From an uncultured Bacteroidales bacterium (GTDB taxonomy: Bacteria; Bacteroidota; Bacteroidia; Bacteroidales; Muribaculaceae), in assembly GCA_947072905.1 (NCBI GenBank), contig CAMTKF010000025.1, positions 1-38,188 on the forward strand: DNA of 38,188 nucleotides, written 5' to 3'. Under the pieces are notes generated by a model that ran no database searches, had not been told where the DNA came from, and saw only the letters and a program-made list of their open reading frames with translations. A program made the translations under genes and the position numbers. Shown piece by piece: positions 5,998 to 30,277 of this stretch; the first letter of the stretch is position 1, and every line of letters begins with the position of its first letter.

Positions 5998-7059
5998 TTA
6001 GTGGTGCATTTTGGGGCCTTTGCGCTGCTGGGCTTTGAGTTTCTGCTGTTCCTTGAATTTGCGTTTGGCTTCTTCGATGCTGAGGCCGGGGTGCATTTTG
6101 AGAAAGTGAGCGAAGTCGTCGGACAGACCTCCTCCTAGTACCATGTTGGTGTCGTCTGCCGATTGGCTTCCGAGTGATGGCGTTGAAAGGGTAATTGCCG
6201 GGGCTTGGGGCTGAGGCGCAGCTGCGGGTGTCAGAGCCGTCGTGGCGGCCTTGGCGGTCGGAGCCATTTGGCTTTTGAGGTTTGCCTCAAATTGGGTAAG
6301 TAAGCCGGTGGGCGTATAATCCTTGCCGATTTTGGATGCGATGAAAGAATGATTGCCTTTAGCATAGATGAGGGTCTTAATCTCAAGTTTCTTTGCATCG
6401 GGATCTTTCCACAGGCATTTCACATTCACGCCCCGTTCTTTCATCCTTCTCTGAAATGTCGGCCAGTCAGTGATGGATTTGTCTTTCAGGACTTCGTGAC
6501 CAATTTGGCGGATTTCAATACGGCTTTTCTCCGCGCCTCGCAGTTTTGAGGTGTCAATCGAAAGACTGTCCTCGGCAATGGTCAGGCCATGGCGTTCGGT
6601 TATATCGAAGCATACGCGCTTGTTACGGTGCCAATTCGTGACTGGCTTGATGATTTTTCCGTCGTAATCCACGCGGCTGAACATAAGGTGGCAATGGGGA
6701 TGGTCAGCATCCGTGTGCCTGACAATAACGTATGGAGTATTCTTTATCCCCATCGCCTCCATGTATTCTTTGGCGATCTGAGTCATGAATTCATCGGTCA
6801 GGCGGTGGGCATCCTCCGGTGCAAATCCCAACGTGATATGTCCGCACGGGTCTTTGATTTTAGACCTTGTCAGGGTTGGCCGCTCTATGTCGGCGGCGGC
6901 TCTCTTTCGCCAATCTTTCTCACCATCGGCAATCCTTACGCCGTCGCTGTCGAGGATTTTCCAGACACGCTTCTCTATAGGTTTGTCGTCCTGCTTGACA
7001 CGGGTTATATAGTCCAGACAGCCTCCAAATCCGTTACCTTTTCTTATCTTGGCAAACAT
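5998..7059 (-). CDS. Relaxase (MOBP-type mobilization nuclease)
   Basis: This is the DNA-nicking enzyme that starts conjugative transfer of the element at oriT. The 353-residue protein has the metal-binding histidine motif HTDADHPHCH (H115, H120, H122, H124), typical of Relaxase/Mobilization nuclease domains. A tyrosine at about residue 17 is a candidate nucleophile. Residues of roughly 260-310 are Pro/Ala/Thr-rich and look like a linker, followed by a basic helical tail. Relaxases of Bacteroides mobilizable transposons are of similar size. The gene starts 3 nt after the accessory mobilization gene and is followed at once by a strong terminator. No type IV secretion genes are present, so transfer would need a helper element. 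The 3' end is duplicated as a remnant at 15437-15608. Confidence 0.93.
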   Translation of the reverse strand: MFAKIRKGNGFGGCLDYITRVKQDDKPIEKRVWKILDSDGVRIADGEKDWRKRAAADIERPTLTRSKIKDPCGHITLGFAPEDAHRLTDEFMTQIAKEYMEAMGIKNTPYVIVRHTDADHPHCHLMFSRVDYDGKIIKPVTNWHRNKRVCFDITERHGLTIAEDSLSIDTSKLRGAEKSRIEIRQIGHEVLKDKSITDWPTFQRRMKERGVNVKCLWKDPDAKKLEIKTLIYAKGNHSFIASKIGKDYTPTGLLTQFEANLKSQMAPTAKAATTALTPAAAPQPQAPAITLSTPSLGSQSADDTNMVLGGGLSDDFAHFLKMHPGLSIEEAKRKFKEQQKLKAQQRKGPKMHH

Positions 7060-7062
7060 ATT

Positions 7063-7434
7063 TTAGGCCTTAATTTCATAGAACAGGTCGATGAGCGCAT
7101 TGTGTCTTTTCAGCACTGCCGTGGCTTGGTTTGCCACAGCGAAGCATCTTCCGCTGTTGCACGCCTTGGCGATCTGGTTAAGGTTGTTACCCTCGCGGAT
7201 AAGTTCGTTGAGAATCCTCATCTGCTCCGGCGAAAGGCGCTCCACAATCTGCGTATTGAGGATGCAGTCACGGGCGAATGTGGAGAAATTCCGGTAGCCG
7301 GCCTTGCGCTTGCGCTCGTTTGCGTGGTCGAGCTGGTTTAGAGAAAACTTGATTGTCTTGGGTAGGTTGATCACATCATACATATCCTCGACATCGTGCC
7401 CCGGCATGGGGCGGCGGTTCTTTTTTCTATTCAT
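7063..7434 (-). CDS. Mobilization accessory protein (MobC/MobA-like relaxosome component)
   Basis: This 123-residue basic protein lies directly upstream of the relaxase, separated by 3 nt. Its middle (an RKAGYRNFSTFARDCIL-type helix segment) and the following SPEQMRILNELIREGNNLNQIAKACN resemble the plasmid mobilization relaxosome family. These proteins bind oriT through a ribbon-helix-helix-like N-terminus and recruit the relaxase. Naming varies among Bacteroides elements, so I give no symbol. The candidate oriT lies directly upstream, at 7476-7547, where such a protein would bind. Confidence 0.85.
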   Translation of the reverse strand: MNRKKNRRPMPGHDVEDMYDVINLPKTIKFSLNQLDHANERKRKAGYRNFSTFARDCILNTQIVERLSPEQMRILNELIREGNNLNQIAKACNSGRCFAVANQATAVLKRHNALIDLFYEIKA

Positions 7435-7657: not shown

Positions 7658-8404
7658 TCAGTCAAGTTTCGACCACTCCGAAATATCCGGCTCCATTTCC
7701 TTGAAAATCTCACGCAGGAGATTATTGATGAGGTAGGTCGGCCGCGCCTTGTGGTCGCCTGAGAGAGCACAAATCCGATAGGCCATTTTGATGAGGTCGG
7801 GGGAAATTGTTATCGGAGAGCCGTCCTTGGTGCTTGTCTTTACGAGATAGGAGTCGTGGAAGTCTGCAAGTTTGGTACGTCGCATCCTGGCACTGATTCG
7901 GGTGGGCTTCTTTTGGGACGGCATCTTGTCAGTTGACACCTCTTCTTCCTTATTGACACCACTCACTTCATTGACTGTATCAACCTCAGTCATTATAGTC
8001 ACATTAGTGGATAATGCGGATTGTATAGCGGAGGTAGAATCGCTCTCACGTTCTGCCATTTCCTCGGCGGCTACGCGTTTGGCCTCATCTTCGTCTATTT
8101 TTACTTGCTTCGCGTGCATCCTTTCCTTGATTGCCTTCGCTTCATCGGAAAGTGACGTGCCCGCTCCAATGGCTTTGTTGGCATCAGTCGTTGAAGTCGT
8201 TGGAGTGACTTCATCCTCCAGCCCTAAGATATTCATGTTGATATTGTCTATATCAAAGTTGTCCATCGGTTTGTCGGAAGATTTACTTTCTCGTGCCTTG
8301 GAATCCGACTCGCCGGGTTTCGCGTATGTCGGTCGTGAGGTTTCCCTCATCCATTCCATGAATTCATCTTGATCTTCAGGAACTACAATATTTTTATTAC
8401 TCAT
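7658..8404 (-). CDS. DUF3408-like mobile-element protein
   Basis: This 248-residue protein has a long low-complexity, charged N-terminal two thirds (Ser/Thr/Glu/Asp-rich, probably disordered). A compact C-terminal domain of about 75 residues ends in a helix, including LIKMAYRICALSGDHKARPTYLINNLL. That C-terminal layout resembles DUF3408 proteins, common in Bacteroides conjugative and mobilizable elements and thought to act in transfer or DNA binding. It lies between the RepA-like ATPase and the oriT-like region, in the same direction. The family match is by eye and only moderate; the biochemical role is unknown. Confidence 0.6.
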   Translation of the reverse strand: MSNKNIVVPEDQDEFMEWMRETSRPTYAKPGESDSKARESKSSDKPMDNFDIDNINMNILGLEDEVTPTTSTTDANKAIGAGTSLSDEAKAIKERMHAKQVKIDEDEAKRVAAEEMAERESDSTSAIQSALSTNVTIMTEVDTVNEVSGVNKEEEVSTDKMPSQKKPTRISARMRRTKLADFHDSYLVKTSTKDGSPITISPDLIKMAYRICALSGDHKARPTYLINNLLREIFKEMEPDISEWSKLD

Positions 8405-8500: not shown

Positions 8501-9532
8501 TCAGTAGTAGAAATCGGGATTGTAGGCGTAGGCTCCGTTTTCTCTGACAATCATCCTCTTGTTCATAAGGAATGTTTTCAGTTTCGTCACCTTTCCGTCG
8601 CCGAATGGGAAGCCGCAGGCGGCATACGCCTGTTTGAGTCCGTCCTCGCAGTTCTGACAACCTTTGATTGCTCCATTCGCGAACGCTTTTTCCAATGCCG
8701 CGCGATGCTGTTCGGATGTCAGTTCATTGTAGGAGAATGTCTGCGGCTTCTGACGGTTGAAGGTATAGCCGTCGGCGATCTCAGGCAAACCGTTGTCGTT
8801 GATACGGAAGGCGAATGGCGAGAAGTCCATTGCACGGATGCAGGATGCCGACACTTCGGTCACTTCATCATCGGTCGCGCTTTTGCTGACTTGCAGAACG
8901 GTCTCAGCCTTGTTGTTCAACTCGGTGCCGACATGACCGCGTACGTTGTCATCGCTCTTGTTGAGATGGAGCACCGTGTGGATATGGATTTGATTGTTGT
9001 CTGTCCATTCCATCAGTTTGTTGATGAGGCGCGATGACTCGGTGGCGTTGTTGATGTCGAACATAAGGTCACGGATGCCGTCGATCACTACCAATCCTAC
9101 ATTTGGCGTTGTGGCTATCGCCCGGTCGATTATTTCCAGACGGGTGTCGGGAACCTGCGCCCTCAACTGCGAGAAAAACAGGTTGTCGGGGTGTCTGTCG
9201 GTGGGCAAACCTGCGAGTTCTATGGCGCGTCGTATCACTTTCTGACAGTGGTATGGGCTTTGCTCGGTGTCGAAGTACAGAACCGTTCTTTTATCGTCCG
9301 GGAACTCTGCCGAATATCCGAGGCATTCACCGTTTGTAAGCGCGGCGGCTACAATGGCACTGACATTGAATGTCTTCTTGCTCTTGGCTTTGCCTGTGGA
9401 CGCTGAGAAGTTGCCAAGTGTGCCGATAACAGAGCCGTTGCAGAACAACACTTCGGGAGCCATCGCCAATTCGTCTGTGACGCGTATCTGCGAGGCTTGC
9501 CAGAGCGTGTCAAGATCTTTCGCGTCCATCAC
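8501..9532 (-). CDS. RepA-like AAA/RecA-fold ATPase of a mobile element
   Basis: This 343-residue ATPase belongs to the RepA/AAA_25 group found in Bacteroides mobilizable elements, where it probably acts as a replicative helicase or replication initiator for the excised circle. A variant Walker A, TGKAKSKKT, lies near residue 46. An acidic DTEQSP segment follows, and a Walker B-like VGLVVIDGIRDL lies near residue 148. The C-terminal part (after about residue 260) looks like a small winged-helix-type domain. The start overlaps the stop of the HTH gene by 4 bases, so the two are translated as a pair. Confidence 0.85.
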   Translation of the reverse strand: MMDAKDLDTLWQASQIRVTDELAMAPEVLFCNGSVIGTLGNFSASTGKAKSKKTFNVSAIVAAALTNGECLGYSAEFPDDKRTVLYFDTEQSPYHCQKVIRRAIELAGLPTDRHPDNLFFSQLRAQVPDTRLEIIDRAIATTPNVGLVVIDGIRDLMFDINNATESSRLINKLMEWTDNNQIHIHTVLHLNKSDDNVRGHVGTELNNKAETVLQVSKSATDDEVTEVSASCIRAMDFSPFAFRINDNGLPEIADGYTFNRQKPQTFSYNELTSEQHRAALEKAFANGAIKGCQNCEDGLKQAYAACGFPFGDGKVTKLKTFLMNKRMIVRENGAYAYNPDFYY

Positions 9533-9840
9533 TGTCTTCCTCTTTCGATTATCAGACGGTCAACGTCGGCGCGGCGGTAGAGAATCTTGCGCTTCATCTT
9601 GACGGGAACAAGATAACCGGAGCGTTCCCAGTTCCAGAGAGTCGTTGGGCATACACCGAACATCTCCAGCACTTCCTTCTTGGGGATGCAGCTCTCCTGC
9701 GAGGCGTTGACCATTACTGGCAGAAGCTGCGCCTTGGCTTGTTCAATCATATCGGTCGCGAAGGCCTTGAGGTCTTCGATTGTCAGAGTGAGGGTCAGAC
9801 CGGTGACTCCACTCTCTATGAGGGTCATGATATTATTCAT
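9529..9840 (-). CDS. Excisionase-like helix-turn-helix protein
   Basis: The C-terminal half carries a MerR/excisionase-type HTH (KKEVLEMFGVCPTTLWNWERSG, then a KILYRRADVDRLI wing). Its N-terminal half is helical. Small proteins of this kind in integrative elements act as excision directionality factors or as regulators of the following replication gene. The frame is open from 9900, but the ATG at 9840 (103 residues) gives the more natural start, MNNIMTLIES; the upstream extension is low complexity. It overlaps the RepA-like ATPase by 4 bases. The family call is good; the excision role is inferred from position. Confidence 0.75.
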   Translation of the reverse strand: MNNIMTLIESGVTGLTLTLTIEDLKAFATDMIEQAKAQLLPVMVNASQESCIPKKEVLEMFGVCPTTLWNWERSGYLVPVKMKRKILYRRADVDRLIIERGRQ

Positions 9841-9900
9841 ATAATCATCGGATTCCGCCGGGGGGTAAGAATCTGTGGCGTTGGCGGAGTGATGCGCCAC

Positions 9901-10590
9901 AGCTCCATAAGACGAAAGTTACATTTTTCCGAAAAGACATAGCGGTGGCCGTACCGACTGCCGGGGCGGTCGGATAAGTTGCGGAATGTCCACGAAAAGA
10001 ATTGAAATGGGACGGGGTCACGCGCCCCTCACTACGATAAAAAGATTCCAGTGGCTCTTTGGCTATCCCACTGCCTCAAGCATTGGTATGGAATTGGTTT
10101 CTCTCCGGCATCAGGACTTCCATGGCAGTCCCGATAGCGCTATTATGCCATTGAGAAATAATGTCGGCATTAACCCGCCGTGGGTCAGTTGGTTGAAAAC
10201 CCTTGTCAGTCATTTGTCTTCATCAAGAGAAAAACATCGGGCAGCAATTCCTCAGAGTATAATTTTGAATGTGCCGGATGAGAATTCATCTCGATTTCAA
10301 CGCTCTACTTTTGGTCGGTCTTCGTATACAAAACACGTGTCTCAACCGCTTGGTTTGCATCGGGCAAACCTCGGACATTGCTATATTTCAGCGTTTTACT
10401 TCTTACATTTACTCAATCACAAGTGGTTAAGTATTGAGAAAAGTCCGACGGCGTCCGACGAATGTCTTGAATATTCTTTTTAATTTCCGAAGTTGTCCGA
10501 TAAGCGTCGCATCACTACCTACGGGAGTCGTGCTTTTGCCGTTCCTGCAAACAATATCTTGAACGCAAAGAGGACTTCATCAGCCGTAAT
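9901..10590. other. Noncoding region upstream of the excisionase-like gene
   Basis: I see no convincing gene here. A 9-bp GC-rich hairpin lies at 9955-9974. A weak -7-like box for the HTH gene is at 9913-9921 on the minus strand. A 13-bp sequence at 10284-10296 recurs exactly at 14020-14032 beside the integrase end and could be an integrase-binding repeat. The plus-strand frame at 9986-10483 has a composition unlike a real protein and I do not call it. Confidence 0.5.
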
Positions 10591-10596
10591 GCTCGA

Positions 10597-11165
10597 CAAA
10601 TATACAACATGCGGTCTTCGATTTCCAAATTTTCAGACCCCTTGGCCGCACAAAGTATATCTATGGCCGCATTTGGCCACGCTGACCAACTGGATTTCAG
10701 AAGAGAAACAAGCCATCAAAAAGAAAAGATTTCGCTTTTTCGTGCATTTCCCACGTTTGCACACACTTTTCCCAACATTGCCCAACAATAATTTTCCAGA
10801 TGAACATAACCGCGACTTCGTTGTTGCGGTCGATTATTGTGATGCAATTGAAAATCGCGAGTGAACTTGAAGCGCATGTCGGCTGAAAGCCGGTGCGCGG
10901 TGGTAACGCCATCAAGATTCACCGCAAAGTTAAGTCAGAGTCATACTGCTATCCAAATATTCAGGGCGCATGGGACTATCTTGCCTCTCAGTGCCTCAAA
11001 GTGACGCGACTCTGCAAAGTTACAATTCCATCCACTCCGAATCCAAATTTTCAGGCAGCATCGGCTCATCTTGCCCGGCATTGCCCAAAAGTGACGCGAT
11101 TTTGATGCAAAGATACATTCCCATCCTCTCCGAATCCCAAATCCGCGATAGCATAGGACTATGTG
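10597..11165 (-). repeat. Array of degenerate repeats, each carrying a promoter
   Basis: Three imperfect tandem units begin at 10924, 11014 and 11107 (spacing 90 and 93 bp), and a more diverged relative lies near 10597-10630. Read on the minus strand, each unit has a -33 TTTGG box and a -7 TAnnTTTG(C) box. Positions are 10924-10956, 11014-11046, 11107-11140 and 10597-10628, with 21, 21, 22 and 21 nt between the boxes. The sequence around the -33 box (CTGAAAATTTGGA-like) is also shared by most units. Between units 1-2 and 2-3 a further block is conserved, around AAAGTGACGCGA on the plus strand. No reading frame follows for about 1 kb, so the array may drive small RNAs, a long leader for the excisionase-replication operon, or serve as protein-binding iterons. 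Confidence 0.65.
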
Positions 11166-11275
11166 ACCGCTCACAGCTCCTCACAGCCGCTAAACTAAAA
11201 AATCCCGACTCGCCATGCCGAAGCATGATGAGCCGGGAGGTATAATTGTGTCGCCACTGGCGCCACAATCTATAA

Positions 11276-12391
11276 TTATTTCATTTCGTCTTCGTTTTCC
11301 GAAAGCTGTTCCAATGATGATTCTATCTCCTCGATAGACGGTAGCGTACTTTTTATCTCGGCAGGAATCAACTTGGTAAGCTCATATTGCGATATTCCAA
11401 GAGGCAGATTGTATGCTTCCAGAGAATACTGGGCCTCAATATTGTCTTTGTCTTTACAAATCAGAAGTCCGATGGTTGGATTGTCTTGCTCGGTTTTAAG
11501 TTGATGATTGACTGCGGTAACATACAGTCCCAATTGACCGAGGTGTGAGGCATTGAATGAACCGGTCTTCAATTCGATGCAGCAATAGGCATGTATCCGT
11601 GTATTGTAAAAGAGCAAATCAATGAAGATTTCCTTTTCTCCGACTTGCAGACGGTATTGTCTTCCCATGAAAGCAAAGCCGGTTCCAAGTTCAATAAGGA
11701 ATTTCGTGACGTTGGCAACAAGCGCATCCTCCAGTTCTTTCTCATTGTAAGCCTCAGTCATTGAGAAGAAGTTGAACACATACGGGTCTTTAGTAACCTG
11801 CTGCGCAAGGTCGCTCTGCAATGCGGGGAGGGTTTTACCGAAATTTGTAATGGCTTTCCCCTCTCGTTCATACAAATCTGTATCGAGGAAGTTCAGCAGC
11901 ACATTACGTCCCCAGCTATTCTGAATGACTTTACGGACAAAAAATAATGCCTTATGAACATCACCCTTACATTTGTCTATAATTCTTCTTTGATGATCCC
12001 AGGGGATAGAGCATATTTCAATCTTGAAATCGTCCGCACCTTGCGGATGATTCTTGTCCACAAAATCGTCCACACGCTGCGGACGATTCTCAATCAACTG
12101 AGAATAAAGATTATAAAAGTAATACATGTACTTGAGATTTGTCTCCGAGAATCCCTTTTCACCGGGCATCTCCAATCTCAAATCTCGGCTCAGATTCTTA
12201 TAAAAGCCAGAGCCGTATGTATTGGCATATTGTTTGGAGGCTATGTCACGCCCCAGACTCCAATAGTATTCCAACAATGTGCGGTTAGCATCGATGGAGG
12301 CTTTCAGACGTGCGGACAGGTATCGCTGTTTGAGTTCCTTTACCCAAACGTGATATTCCTTATCCTGAGAGAGATTTATAATTGGTTTCAT
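11276..12391 (-). CDS. YhcG-family PD-(D/E)XK nuclease domain protein (DUF1016)
   Basis: This 371-residue protein has the two-part layout of the YhcG/DUF1016 family. The N-terminal domain has LLEYYWSLGRDIA and the family-typical SETNLKYMYYFYNLY segment. The C-terminal PD-(D/E)XK nuclease-like domain has EIFIDLLFYN followed by CCIELKTGSF, so the acidic residue of the IDLLF segment and the E-x-K of IELK form the expected active site. Family members are widespread on mobile elements and are suspected of defence or recombination roles; their function is not settled. The gene sits 51 bp downstream of the integrase in the same direction and is a likely cargo gene. Confidence 0.9.
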   Translation of the reverse strand: MKPIINLSQDKEYHVWVKELKQRYLSARLKASIDANRTLLEYYWSLGRDIASKQYANTYGSGFYKNLSRDLRLEMPGEKGFSETNLKYMYYFYNLYSQLIENRPQRVDDFVDKNHPQGADDFKIEICSIPWDHQRRIIDKCKGDVHKALFFVRKVIQNSWGRNVLLNFLDTDLYEREGKAITNFGKTLPALQSDLAQQVTKDPYVFNFFSMTEAYNEKELEDALVANVTKFLIELGTGFAFMGRQYRLQVGEKEIFIDLLFYNTRIHAYCCIELKTGSFNASHLGQLGLYVTAVNHQLKTEQDNPTIGLLICKDKDNIEAQYSLEAYNLPLGISQYELTKLIPAEIKSTLPSIEEIESSLEQLSENEDEMK

Positions 12392-12442: not shown

Positions 12443-13795
12443 TCAGTCGAGCAAACCGACAAGTTCCTTTTTCATGTCTTCGTCGATGTCGCGGTAGCGG
12501 GCGAAGGCGCGGCTTCCCTCGGAGTGGCCGCTTAGTGAGCCTACAAGGTTTGGATCCTTGACCTTCTTGTATAGGTTGCCGATGAAGGTGCGTCGGGCGA
12601 GGTGGCTGCTGGCGATTTCGTCAATGGGCCGTTTCTCCTCTTTCCCGGTGGTCGGATTCAGTATTGTCACCATCCGGGTCACGCCGCAAGTCTTGAATAT
12701 CTTTTTGATGGCGACATTGTATTTCTGTGAACTGATGAACGGAAAGAGTTTTCCATTCAGCCCCTCGCGTCCTTTGTATTTATCAACAAGAGCCAACGCG
12801 CGGGTATTCAGTGGCACGCGGACCACCTGCGGCCTTTCTCCGGCTGTTTTCTGCGGCATATATTCGATTGCACCGTTGATGATGCTGTCATGAGTCATCG
12901 CCAACAGGTCAGACACTCGACATCCGATCAGGCACTGAAAAATAAAAATATCCCGTTGTGACTCCAACGATGGATTAGCCGACAAATCGAAGTCAGCAAT
13001 CTGGTCGCGCTCCTCGATTGTGATATAGTAGGGAGTGCCGTATCGCTCGGTTGTCTTACCGTTGTATTTAGCAAACGGGTCATTCATAGTCATATCCTGC
13101 TCACGACACCAGCGATAGAATGCTCTCATCAGTCCGAAAAGGCCAATGATAGTGTTGTCGCCCTTTGGATGTGGCTTAGGTTTCTTTCGCTGGGAATGAG
13201 TGTCAGCCGGAATCGCATCATAAATTTTCGGATATTTAGTGTAGATAAAATGTTCTGAGCGCAAGAATTTCTCAAACTTATTGACATCATCAACCGTAAA
13301 CTCGTCGAGCTTGATTCGGTATTTCCTGTTGCCGTTGGCTTGCACGTATAGTTCGTAGCGCATTAGGGCGCGTTTCAACACACGAAGATGTTTGATGCGC
13401 CACTCCGATATGTTCTTTTTGGCGATATAATCCTCGAATATATCAAAGAACGATATTTCCGGTACCACCACCGTTTCCTCTTTCGGTGGGTTTAGGAACA
13501 ATTCCAACTGGGCAAGGACAAAATCTTTTGTCACTTTTTCAACCGGATTATCCTCACATAAACGGATAAGAAACTTCTCAATGCTTTCCAGTCTATCCTG
13601 CACCTCGCGAACTTCACGTTTCCCTTCCGGGTCACGCGGATTAGTGAATTTGCCGTCCTTGAAACGGTCGGCAGAGATATACAGACCACTCTTGATACGG
13701 TGGGAAACGCTATGCGAAACGGATACGCGGAGAAGAATCTCAGCGCGTCCGGAAGCATTTACTTTCGCCGATAAGGCTCTTTTGATTGTTGCCAT
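12443..13795 (-). CDS. Tyrosine recombinase / integrase of the mobilizable element
   Basis: This is a site-specific recombinase that inserts and excises the element. The 450-residue length and the long N-terminal arm-binding and SAM-like core-binding region fit the Bacteroidetes phage-integrase group. Catalytic residues visible are R293 (in GCRVSDLL), the HLARR box (His and Arg), the LSGH box and the nucleophile Y434 (in ARYRD). The start ATG at 13795 is supported by a good promoter about 45 nt upstream. The gene is at one end of the element, next to a tRNA-3'-end-like sequence at 14045-14063 that may be the attachment site. Confidence 0.94.
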   Translation of the reverse strand: MATIKRALSAKVNASGRAEILLRVSVSHSVSHRIKSGLYISADRFKDGKFTNPRDPEGKREVREVQDRLESIEKFLIRLCEDNPVEKVTKDFVLAQLELFLNPPKEETVVVPEISFFDIFEDYIAKKNISEWRIKHLRVLKRALMRYELYVQANGNRKYRIKLDEFTVDDVNKFEKFLRSEHFIYTKYPKIYDAIPADTHSQRKKPKPHPKGDNTIIGLFGLMRAFYRWCREQDMTMNDPFAKYNGKTTERYGTPYYITIEERDQIADFDLSANPSLESQRDIFIFQCLIGCRVSDLLAMTHDSIINGAIEYMPQKTAGERPQVVRVPLNTRALALVDKYKGREGLNGKLFPFISSQKYNVAIKKIFKTCGVTRMVTILNPTTGKEEKRPIDEIASSHLARRTFIGNLYKKVKDPNLVGSLSGHSEGSRAFARYRDIDEDMKKELVGLLD

Positions 13796-28103: not shown

Positions 28104-29729
28104 TCATAATCTTACTAATGTGGCTTTTCCATCAGATACTTTGATGAAAACGCCACATGTGGGATTTTCAACCCTGATGCCATTCAGATTATAATAAACC
28201 ACATCATTACCACTTTCTGAGAACACATCCTGAACACCGGCGGATTGCAGGCTGATTGCTGTTTCTGTCACTTCAAATCTCACGCCGTCGCCCTTTCTAT
28301 CCAAATTTTGATATATCGGCTTCCAATCGAGTGTTTCGGTTTTGAAAACCGGATACACATCATAAGTACCAACGGGGAAATCCACCGCCGGTATTTCATA
28401 GAATCTGTTTAATGCCCTGAAACGATATCCATTCTGCCTATTATCACTCAAATAAAATTCAGCAGACCCGTCCGTTGGAACACATCTGATTCCATGCTGA
28501 ATCCGAAAATAGGTCAAGGACACATTTCGTATACCCTGCATGAACCATACCGTGGTTCCGGGAATCTTTTCATATTGAGATTTATCAGTTCTGAACATCT
28601 CTTCAAAAGCAAATGACGGTATGAATTCTGAATCATCCATCGCAGGTCGGATTCCTCTAACCATGGTATGATTTATCCGATAGTTTCCTCCTTCAAATGA
28701 GAAATCGTCTAATTTGAAATAGCCGTCGTTTTTGCCTTCCCAACCCCAATTTATATGGTAGAGACCCTCTTCTGAATAGCCGTCCATCACAAAGGCATGC
28801 CTTGAGTGCCACACATCATTTTCTCCGCCATATAAGATAGGGCGCCCCTGGGCAAGTTCCTGATAGCACATATCATCCCACTCATCGCCGGTAAACCATT
28901 TACTCTCCAGGTATTCCAGTCCCCGGTCATACCGCAAGTAATCAATCAAGCCTTTGCCGGCCAGATATACGTGCGAACCGCTCGCGTACGGTGTGTACTG
29001 CATCTCAGCTGCCGCGCCGCAGGCTGCCATCAACTCCGCAACGGCCCTTTGCTCCGACTCAGTGGAATTGCTCGAATATACATCGGCCATATTGTTCCAA
29101 TCAAATGTCACCGCCTCAAAATCATAACTATGGTCATGATTATAGCCATCACGTGCGCAAGTCCACTTAATAGTGCCGAGTCCCTTGTCAGGATACGAGT
29201 AAAATCGCATTATCTGAGCGATTGCAGTTGCCACACAACCGGTCACAGGCCTTATGCCATCATGCAGGGGGCATAAGTTATTGAAAGGCTCTGCCTGGCC
29301 CCATTTGGTTGACAACATGGGGCTTACAGGACTTCGCTCTGCATTATAACTACGCGAATGTGCTACATTGGCATCTACTGAAATTCCAATGCTCTCAGAA
29401 TACTGACCGATCAACCATTGCATGGAAGGCGACATATCTTCTGAAAAACCGCCTTCAAATGAGTAGGCAATCAGTCCGGGAAAAACGTCATCGGCAGAAG
29501 CAATTACATACATTGCCGGTGAAGAAAACACATATAATGTTTTTGCGCCATTATATTCTCGGCTATCCACCAACTTCAAATCAGCGACATTTGCATTTGT
29601 TTGCGTTAAAGAAGTCAATTCAAGCAACGCAGACTCCAACGCCTTGTCAGCACTTACACTTCTTGCACTCAACAGGCATGCGTCTAAAACACATAGCATT
29701 AAGAAAAATAACCGGAATACTTTTTTCAT
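28104..29729 (-). CDS. Secreted C10 (streptopain-like) cysteine protease
   Basis: This is an extracellular papain-fold protease of the SpeB/interpain family. Starting at the ATG at 29729 gives 541 residues: a signal peptide (MKKVFRLFFLMLCVLDACLL), a propeptide of about 100 residues, then the mature enzyme. The catalytic Cys is C165 (TGCVATAIAQIM) and the catalytic His is H311 (RHAFVMDGY), followed by the family-typical HINWGWEGKNDGYFKL. A C-terminal beta region ends in YYNLNGIRVENP, a Bacteroidetes secreted-protein tail motif. The frame is open to 30008, but the promoter box just before 29729 and the signal peptide settle the start. Confidence 0.92.
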   Translation of the reverse strand: MKKVFRLFFLMLCVLDACLLSARSVSADKALESALLELTSLTQTNANVADLKLVDSREYNGAKTLYVFSSPAMYVIASADDVFPGLIAYSFEGGFSEDMSPSMQWLIGQYSESIGISVDANVAHSRSYNAERSPVSPMLSTKWGQAEPFNNLCPLHDGIRPVTGCVATAIAQIMRFYSYPDKGLGTIKWTCARDGYNHDHSYDFEAVTFDWNNMADVYSSNSTESEQRAVAELMAACGAAAEMQYTPYASGSHVYLAGKGLIDYLRYDRGLEYLESKWFTGDEWDDMCYQELAQGRPILYGGENDVWHSRHAFVMDGYSEEGLYHINWGWEGKNDGYFKLDDFSFEGGNYRINHTMVRGIRPAMDDSEFIPSFAFEEMFRTDKSQYEKIPGTTVWFMQGIRNVSLTYFRIQHGIRCVPTDGSAEFYLSDNRQNGYRFRALNRFYEIPAVDFPVGTYDVYPVFKTETLDWKPIYQNLDRKGDGVRFEVTETAISLQSAGVQDVFSESGNDVVYYNLNGIRVENPTCGVFIKVSDGKATLVRL

Positions 29730-29732
29730 TTT

Positions 29733-29763
29733 GCAAATATACCGTTTTTCAGCAAAAAAACAA
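29733..29763 (-). promoter_or_regulatory. Promoter of the C10 protease
   Basis: On the minus strand, TTG, 19 nt, then TATATTTGC matches the consensus. The -7 box ends within about 4 nt of the ATG at 29729, so the transcript would be nearly leaderless. This argues against the longer open frame that begins at 30008. Confidence 0.65.
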
Positions 29764-29926
29764 GCTTTATCACTAAAAAACACAAGAATAAGGAAGAAGT
29801 TGTCACGATGAAAACGATGTGTATGCCCTCTTATCTCTCCATCATCATTATGGCGAAGCATGAATGGGCGGTCTGTTATTGCAGTCAGCTTATGCTCCGG
29901 AATTTTATTTTCTGTCAACACTGCAC

Positions 29927-30277
29927 TTATTTTCTTTTTAGATGGTTTGTGATAAGCATTGCGATAACTCCGATACACAGATACGTTGCGGCATAGGCAA
30001 TAAACCACGGTTCATGAATATCAAAGAACAGCCATGTACCGGCAAGAAACGCAGCCGCAGATATTAGAGGCAGATTCCATAATGCTTTGAGGTTTAGTCC
30101 GGCGACAATACCAAGTATTATGGAATAGATGGGGTTGATGACAAGGAATAGCATCATGCACAGGGCCATACCTGCACATTCTGATGCAAACTTGGCTACG
30201 GTAAAAGGCAGTATGAACATGACGGCAATGGTTATGCCTACCCATTTGAGAGATGTCCGTTTCAGTTCATCAGTCAT
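29927..30277 (-). CDS. Small membrane protein, last gene of the DJ-1/YciI operon
   Basis: The 116-residue protein has four hydrophobic segments and short charged ends (MTDELKRTSLKW at the start, NHLKRK at the end), so it is an integral membrane protein. I recognise no family. It starts 2 bp after the YciI gene ends, and four genes in a row are separated by 2-4 bp, so it is clearly the last member of that operon. Confidence 0.75.
   Translation of the reverse strand: MTDELKRTSLKWVGITIAVMFILPFTVAKFASECAGMALCMMLFLVINPIYSIILGIVAGLNLKALWNLPLISAAAFLAGTWLFFDIHEPWFIAYAATYLCIGVIAMLITNHLKRK

Follow-up and report, generated by a model that had tools for sequence, protein, structure and literature searches.

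Stacked predicted promoters in a Muribaculaceae mobilizable element match transfer-gene promoters of two kinds of conjugative transposon

In CTnDOT, the intergenic region between the mob and tra genes is bound by the proteins Xis2d and Exc. NBU1 is a tyrosine-integrase element with a relaxase whose helper transposon carries an RteB-type regulator; RteA and RteB act on NBU1, and one report calls the RteB target on this element as yet unidentified (PMC1976400). The integrative mobilizable elements (IMEs) studied show no excision in the absence of a helper, since its main regulators are required for RDF expression (PMC5704250). In SGI1 and other IncA/C-mobilized islands, promoters on the island are controlled by AcaCD, the master activator of the helper, according to two further papers (PMC4605294, PMC5058578). 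Here we describe a locus that resembles both NBU1 and SGI1. Stacked promoters on a mobilizable element match the transfer-gene promoters of two kinds of conjugative element, which suggests that the element may listen for a helper before moving. Searching titles and abstract starts, with few subscription journals covered, we found no paper naming such shared tra-type promoters in Bacteroidales.

The window is the whole stretch of DNA analysed, 38,188 bp long. The element is read on the minus strand, with genes for a tyrosine integrase (12443..13795) and a DUF1016/YhcG nuclease (11276-12391) followed by a 1.4-kb noncoding stretch in which the promoters sit. Beyond it lie genes for an excisionase-like HTH_17 protein (9529..9840; ORF listed as 9529-9900), a RepA-helicase-like AAA_25 protein (8501..9532), a DUF3408 protein (7658..8404), a MobC/NikA-like protein (7063-7434) and a MobA/VirD2-type relaxase (5998-7059); past the relaxase gene come an SNF2/PLD helicase and a type IIG-like methyltransferase. 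The DUF3408 protein shares its Pfam family with the product of the gene following traA in the G388:C9 transposon. All four promoters face the genes from HTH_17 to the relaxase, which probably form one operon with HTH_17 as its first gene. The element has an integrase and a relaxase, a TraG match is absent from its genome, and the contig ends at base 1. We best explain the interval as a region that controls an IME. The first-pass annotation was supported in part: the region looks like the control region of mobilization genes, and each unit carries an intact predicted promoter. Inside the DUF1016 gene, positions 12027-12090 hold a direct repeat of 28 bp (86%), which doubles as an inverted repeat (84%) with 25-nt arms. 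Outside the element core, 28104-30008 on the minus strand encodes a streptopain-like Peptidase C10 with a Spi inhibitor domain.

The four promoters, P1 to P4, combine a -33 TTTGG box with a -7 TAnnTTTG box, all as first proposed and all on the minus strand. P1 (11102..11191) has its operator-like block at 11149-11191, its -33 box at 11141-11137 and its -7 box, TATCTTTG, at 11115-11108. The -33 and -7 boxes lie at 11047-11043 and 11022-11015 in P2 (11009..11098), at 10957-10953 and 10932-10925 in P3 (10919..11008), the -7 box reading TAACTTTG in both, and at 10629-10625 and 10604-10597 in P4 (10591..10680), where it reads TATATTTG. From P1 to P4 the -7 boxes are 93, 90 and 328 bp apart, in agreement with the earlier description of three units in tandem at 90-93 bp. 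The gap between boxes is 20-21 nt counted from TTTGG; the 21-22 nt given before is right when counted from TTTG. The strict pattern TTTGG-N19..22-TAnnTTTG has four matches in the 38,188 bp, both strands counted, all of them P1-P4; when the 569-bp interval was dinucleotide-shuffled 2000 times, four matches were never reached (maximum one). The sigma-ABfr-type promoter of Bacteroides consists of a -7 TAnnTTTG and a TTTG near -33 (PMC7366714), and this pattern is present in 4/4 units. In promoters of this type, transcription begins a short way past the -7 box. P1-P4 are predicted to be housekeeping-sigma promoters of the sigma-ABfr type, and the stack is a real, non-random set of what would be regulated promoters. 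Downstream of it, the first ATG of the HTH gene is at about 9840, 0.76 kb past the last -7 box and 1.1 kb past the third, which corrects the reported gene-free distance of about 1 kb. Part of the gap after P3 is a separate inserted hairpin repeat, the B element described below.

Other signals flank the stack on the same strand. An intrinsic-terminator-like hairpin (11203..11238; z -6.24 for the 71-nt stretch 11200-11270) stands after DUF1016 and before P1, and the leader holds two weaker terminator-like sites (10180-10165 and 10028-10009), where shuffles give 1.6 by chance. By eye, a leader box with inverted-repeat arms, CGTTCAA..GGAACG, lies downstream of P4 (10540..10565). A box of this kind, (C)RTTCAA..GGAAY(G), follows the -7 box by about 35-60 nt in most of the class A units (defined below) that were compared, and also appears in the G388:C9-type tra leader (window, L005 7757-8102 region, L065), and its arms change together (CGTTC/GAACG, CATTC/GAATG), all by eye.

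Each promoter was extracted with the 76 bases upstream of its -7 box, and the units fall into two classes, class C with P1-P3 and class A with P4. Ungapped alignments over 90 columns hold 10 class C and 11 class A units. In both classes an operator-like block upstream of the -33 box is followed by a variable spacer and then by the -7 box. For 10 class C and 8 class A units, picked to limit near-duplicates rather than taken as all matches, mean pairwise identity was 0.66 and 0.70, respectively, in the operator, 0.56 and 0.76 in the -33 region, 0.30 and 0.49 in the spacer, and 0.82 and 0.78 in the -7 region. The repeated part of the units lies mostly upstream of each -33 box, at a fixed distance from it. 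Within the stack, tandem similarity is 77% over 64 nt at 90 bp and 75% over 52 nt at 93 bp. Sequence around the -33 box, said before to be common to most units, is alike in P2, P3 and P4 and less so in P1, with conservation placed mainly upstream of this box. Sequence-only models of class C (R1) and class A (R2) scored P1 at 63.0, P2 at 75.2 and P3 at 79.9 bits (R1) and P4 at 86.3 bits (R2), each unit being in the training set of its model; P1, the most divergent class C unit, fits R1 less well. By eye, both operators contain a direct repeat of about 10 bp, of the type GnGGC(C)AAnTGCGnGGC(C)A; in class A, this repeat is shifted upstream by roughly one helical turn relative to class C. These blocks are candidate protein-binding sites. 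Loss of the boxes among homologous elements with the rest conserved had been named as the sign of a mistaken reading, and the opposite was found: between the window and G342, changes affect 0/40 positions in the -7 regions, 3/56 in the -33 regions, 12/72 in the spacers and 25/172 in the operators.

A search of 397 family genomes with the interval as query found matches in 80 of them, and these matches resolve into a mosaic of separate stretches. Class C units (R1) were present in 23/297 family genomes and class A units (R2) in 20/217, the own genome and partial matches being counted in both cases; in the order, class A was found in 3/198 genomes, namely the window's own, G025 and, as one weak partial match, a genome of another family. 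Several elements have more than one unit. The search for the unit in other Bacteroidales elements, suggested as a check from the start, found it in two settings, before traA and before the HTH_17 genes of smaller islands. In 11/11 transposon loci checked, traA lies downstream in the same orientation. Class A precedes it in the conjugative transposons of G025, G383, G365, G381 and G421, and class C in G388:C9, G514:C4, G334, G473, G449 and G434; Pfam confirms TraG (PF19044) for both G025 and G388 and, for the latter, a relaxase. A second class C match in G388:C9, limited to the operator, is found at a distance of 33 kb; the gene beside it matches HTH_17 weakly, and among the genes that follow it one has MutS domain I.

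In the smaller islands, an HTH_17 gene downstream of the unit was identified by Pfam in G388:C15, G408 and G372:C62, by Pfam matches under the curated cut-off in G569 and G352, and by similarity in G511, G514:C14, G342:C506 and G328 (where the frame is broken). The class C islands of G511, G328, G514:C14 and G408 (L160-L164, L170) have a TraB-like and an HTH_17 ORF behind the unit, the TraB-like ORF of G408 being DUF3408 by Pfam; these islands look as if built on a captured tra promoter plus traB. PADLOC, applied to selected cargo proteins from G511, G328 and G514:C14 and to three proteins of the window, reported ZorA in G328, DrmA in G511 and MkoA in G514:C14 among the island cargo, and type I restriction was recognized by eye in the G388:C15 and G569 islands.

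Distribution also set limits on what the unit can be. It is not a general tra promoter, because it is missing before traA from five further conjugative transposons of this family (G328:C33, G372:C344, G372:C385, G342:C139 and G514:C11). On these five, R1 gave 0 matches and R2 one weak partial match, in G342:C139 and elsewhere than before traA; G342:C139 has one plain promoter-geometry match 0.8 kb before this gene. Nor is the array a core feature of all HTH-AAA_25 elements, as units occur at just two, L088 and L096, of 69 loci that have an AAA_25 relative. A plasmid or phage origin was rejected, since 10550-11270 had no blastn match in the plasmid and phage collections.

We then compared the transposons of the two classes for candidate regulators. 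Two RteB-like proteins, RteB_A and RteB_C, are NtrC-type by Pfam, with a sigma-54-activator domain and a Fis-type HTH, plus a response-regulator receiver domain in RteB_C. Among 22 genomes searched, RteB_A at 75% identity or more occurred in 5, exactly the five genomes with the class A transposon (G025, G383, G365, G381, G421), on the contig of the unit in four and on another contig in G365. RteB_C at 92% or more also occurred in 5 of the 22 (G388, G334, G514, G473, G449), which are five of the six genomes with the class C transposon and no others, and in all five it lies on the contig of the class C unit before traA. In the sixth, G434, RteB_C was not found; this assembly is split into about 380 contigs. 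Identity between the two proteins is 26%, against 91% for TraG across classes. Mob (51%), Int (54%), TraA (57%) and the Xis2d-like HTH (38% over 77 aa, with only weak HTH_17 matches) also differ by class, and therefore no regulator is singled out. The co-segregation with RteB class amounts to two transposon lineages, and RteB is a candidate regulator, not a proven one. RteB_A was not found in G000, G342, G393, G388 and G372, which nevertheless have class A units. In the window's genome we found neither RteB_A nor RteB_C above about 30% identity, and with the missing TraG match this means that no helper is seen there now.

By sequence, then, island and helper transfer promoters have a regulatory module in common, in classes A and C. 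We give an even chance to the reading that these are helper-responsive promoters, on which a regulator of the helper transposon would act. Every promoter is preceded, at constant distance, by an operator-like block of one of two classes; a helper regulator, possibly an RteB-like or an Xis2d-like protein, would bind the blocks and switch on the HTH and mobilization genes while the helper is active. Such activation might also bear on excision or transfer. A more elaborate version, in which the element assembled tra-promoter modules of two transposon classes and works as a sensor that either helper can wake, is tentative and rather unlikely; three copies (class C) would serve one helper class and one copy (class A) the other.

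The element's own HTH_17 could instead bind the direct repeats of about 10 bp in the operators, so that the stack tunes the element's own genes and the likeness to tra promoters reflects shared descent. Xis-like proteins are expected to bind direct repeats of about 10 bp, and repeats of this length were seen by eye in the operators. The downstream genes also begin with HTH_17, both in the window and in several islands, and an RteB relative was not found in the island stretches L160-L165, L170 and L171. On the other hand, the HTH proteins of the class A islands G388:C15 and G342:C506 share 62-68% identity with their class C counterparts in G511, G514:C14 and G408, while other HTHs under class C units are only about 26-30% identical, and both operator classes occur on one element, that of the window. 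HTH_17 type is thus not supported as the determinant of operator class, and because the HTH_17 of the islands does not follow this class, simple autoregulation is disfavoured and we regard it as unlikely. Passive remnants, in which promoters were captured by repeated cargo exchange and the repeats are recombination substrates, would account for G393, with one class C unit, similarity to the window that stops just before the P3 operator and different upstream cargo, and for G342, with three units downstream of other sequence. Against this very improbable explanation, 40/40 positions of the -7 regions are unchanged relative to G342 while the spacers drift.

Two further explanations had come from the first-pass annotation. 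In one, the units are an iteron-like region for replication or excision, bound by a Rep/AAA protein. A RepA-like AAA_25 gene adjoins the array, and an iteron-like box of TTGGG(R)AA repeats with 10-12-bp spacing, TTGGGCAATG TTGGGAAAAG ... CGTGGGAAATG, was located at 10746..10795 on the minus strand. Similar boxes were seen by eye 0.4-1.0 kb upstream of the HTH gene in 8/13 related elements, and a script counted three or more repeats in 5/13. We noted iteron-like boxes upstream of HTH genes in L089, L090, L095, L096 and L116. The 90-bp units, however, are not short iterons, their -33 and -7 boxes keep a fixed distance, and they accompany the related AAA_25 gene in only 2/69 loci. The iteron idea is therefore quite improbable for the promoter units, which do not fit it, and may apply to the separate box of repeats of about 10-11 bp. 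In the other explanation, each unit would yield one member of a family of small RNAs. Each unit does have an intact predicted promoter, and the P3 transcript, with the B insertion, would begin as a strongly folded RNA. Yet shuffled sequences fold as well as the two inter-promoter segments tested (z +0.58 and +0.14), the minus strand lacks terminator-like sites between units, and conservation lies mainly upstream of the -33 box, on which grounds we rejected a small-RNA array and leave it only the slightest probability. Rfam had no match in the window at gathering score and, at E up to 5, two weak unrelated matches outside the array. With no unusual folds and no separating terminators, the units look like regulated promoters and not like small-RNA genes.

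The B element is a 76-bp three-way-junction hairpin repeat at the P3 start site (10848..10923, minus strand; z -3.88) and is probably unrelated to the promoter stack. It is absent from this site in G342 and G393. TTGC flanks it on both sides and occurs once in the empty site of G393, so that the window has 80 extra bases. The alignment of B has 31 of 40 listed copies, five L018 rows (duplicates of L037), two further G529 array copies and one second copy each from L043 and L044 having been dropped, and the G466 copies being outside that list. In this alignment, 18/25 pairs show changes on both sides and 97.1% of cells pair; 0/500 shuffles get that far, and sliding the structure lowers the figure to 28.8-39.2%. 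Two-sided changes occupy 72 cells and one-sided ones just 8, all of them G-U, which suggests that constraint or copying acts on the DNA and not on RNA alone. Of the 31 copies, 25 lie directly after TTGC and 12 directly after a TAnnTTTG box plus C. Tandem arrays include five copies spaced 81 bp apart in G529, four spaced about 160 bp apart in G466, another array in G652 and units of about 84 bp in G642, which lie before a gene resembling dnaE when read by eye. The window's genome has three matches at E up to 0.01; outside the family there were four, all in 1/243 genomes searched. REP/RAYT-type mobile hairpins are structured repeats moved by a Y1 transposase; B has a structure, and Y1_Tnp was found in 6/7 genomes, the exception being G466 with its four-copy array. 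In five loci with B, Rfam gave no match at E up to 1, and the titles and abstract starts of the papers listed revealed no published repeat like B.

Returning to the helper-responsive reading, the candidate sites of the locus are short and concrete, the operators fall into two classes, and each class is matched by a candidate regulator, which makes the question testable with reporters. If helper control holds true, the spread of phage defence would be tied to the activity of conjugative transposons through the modules before defence islands.

Set beside the systems introduced above, the window element differs from SGI1 with AcaCD in phylum, sigma factor and regulator family; its promoters are stacked in one control region and belong to two classes, and their activation is a proposal. 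In contrast to NBU1, it has an HTH_17-AAA_25 core. The likeness to CTnDOT would lie in how the tra operon is controlled, namely from within the stretch that separates the divergent mob and tra genes.
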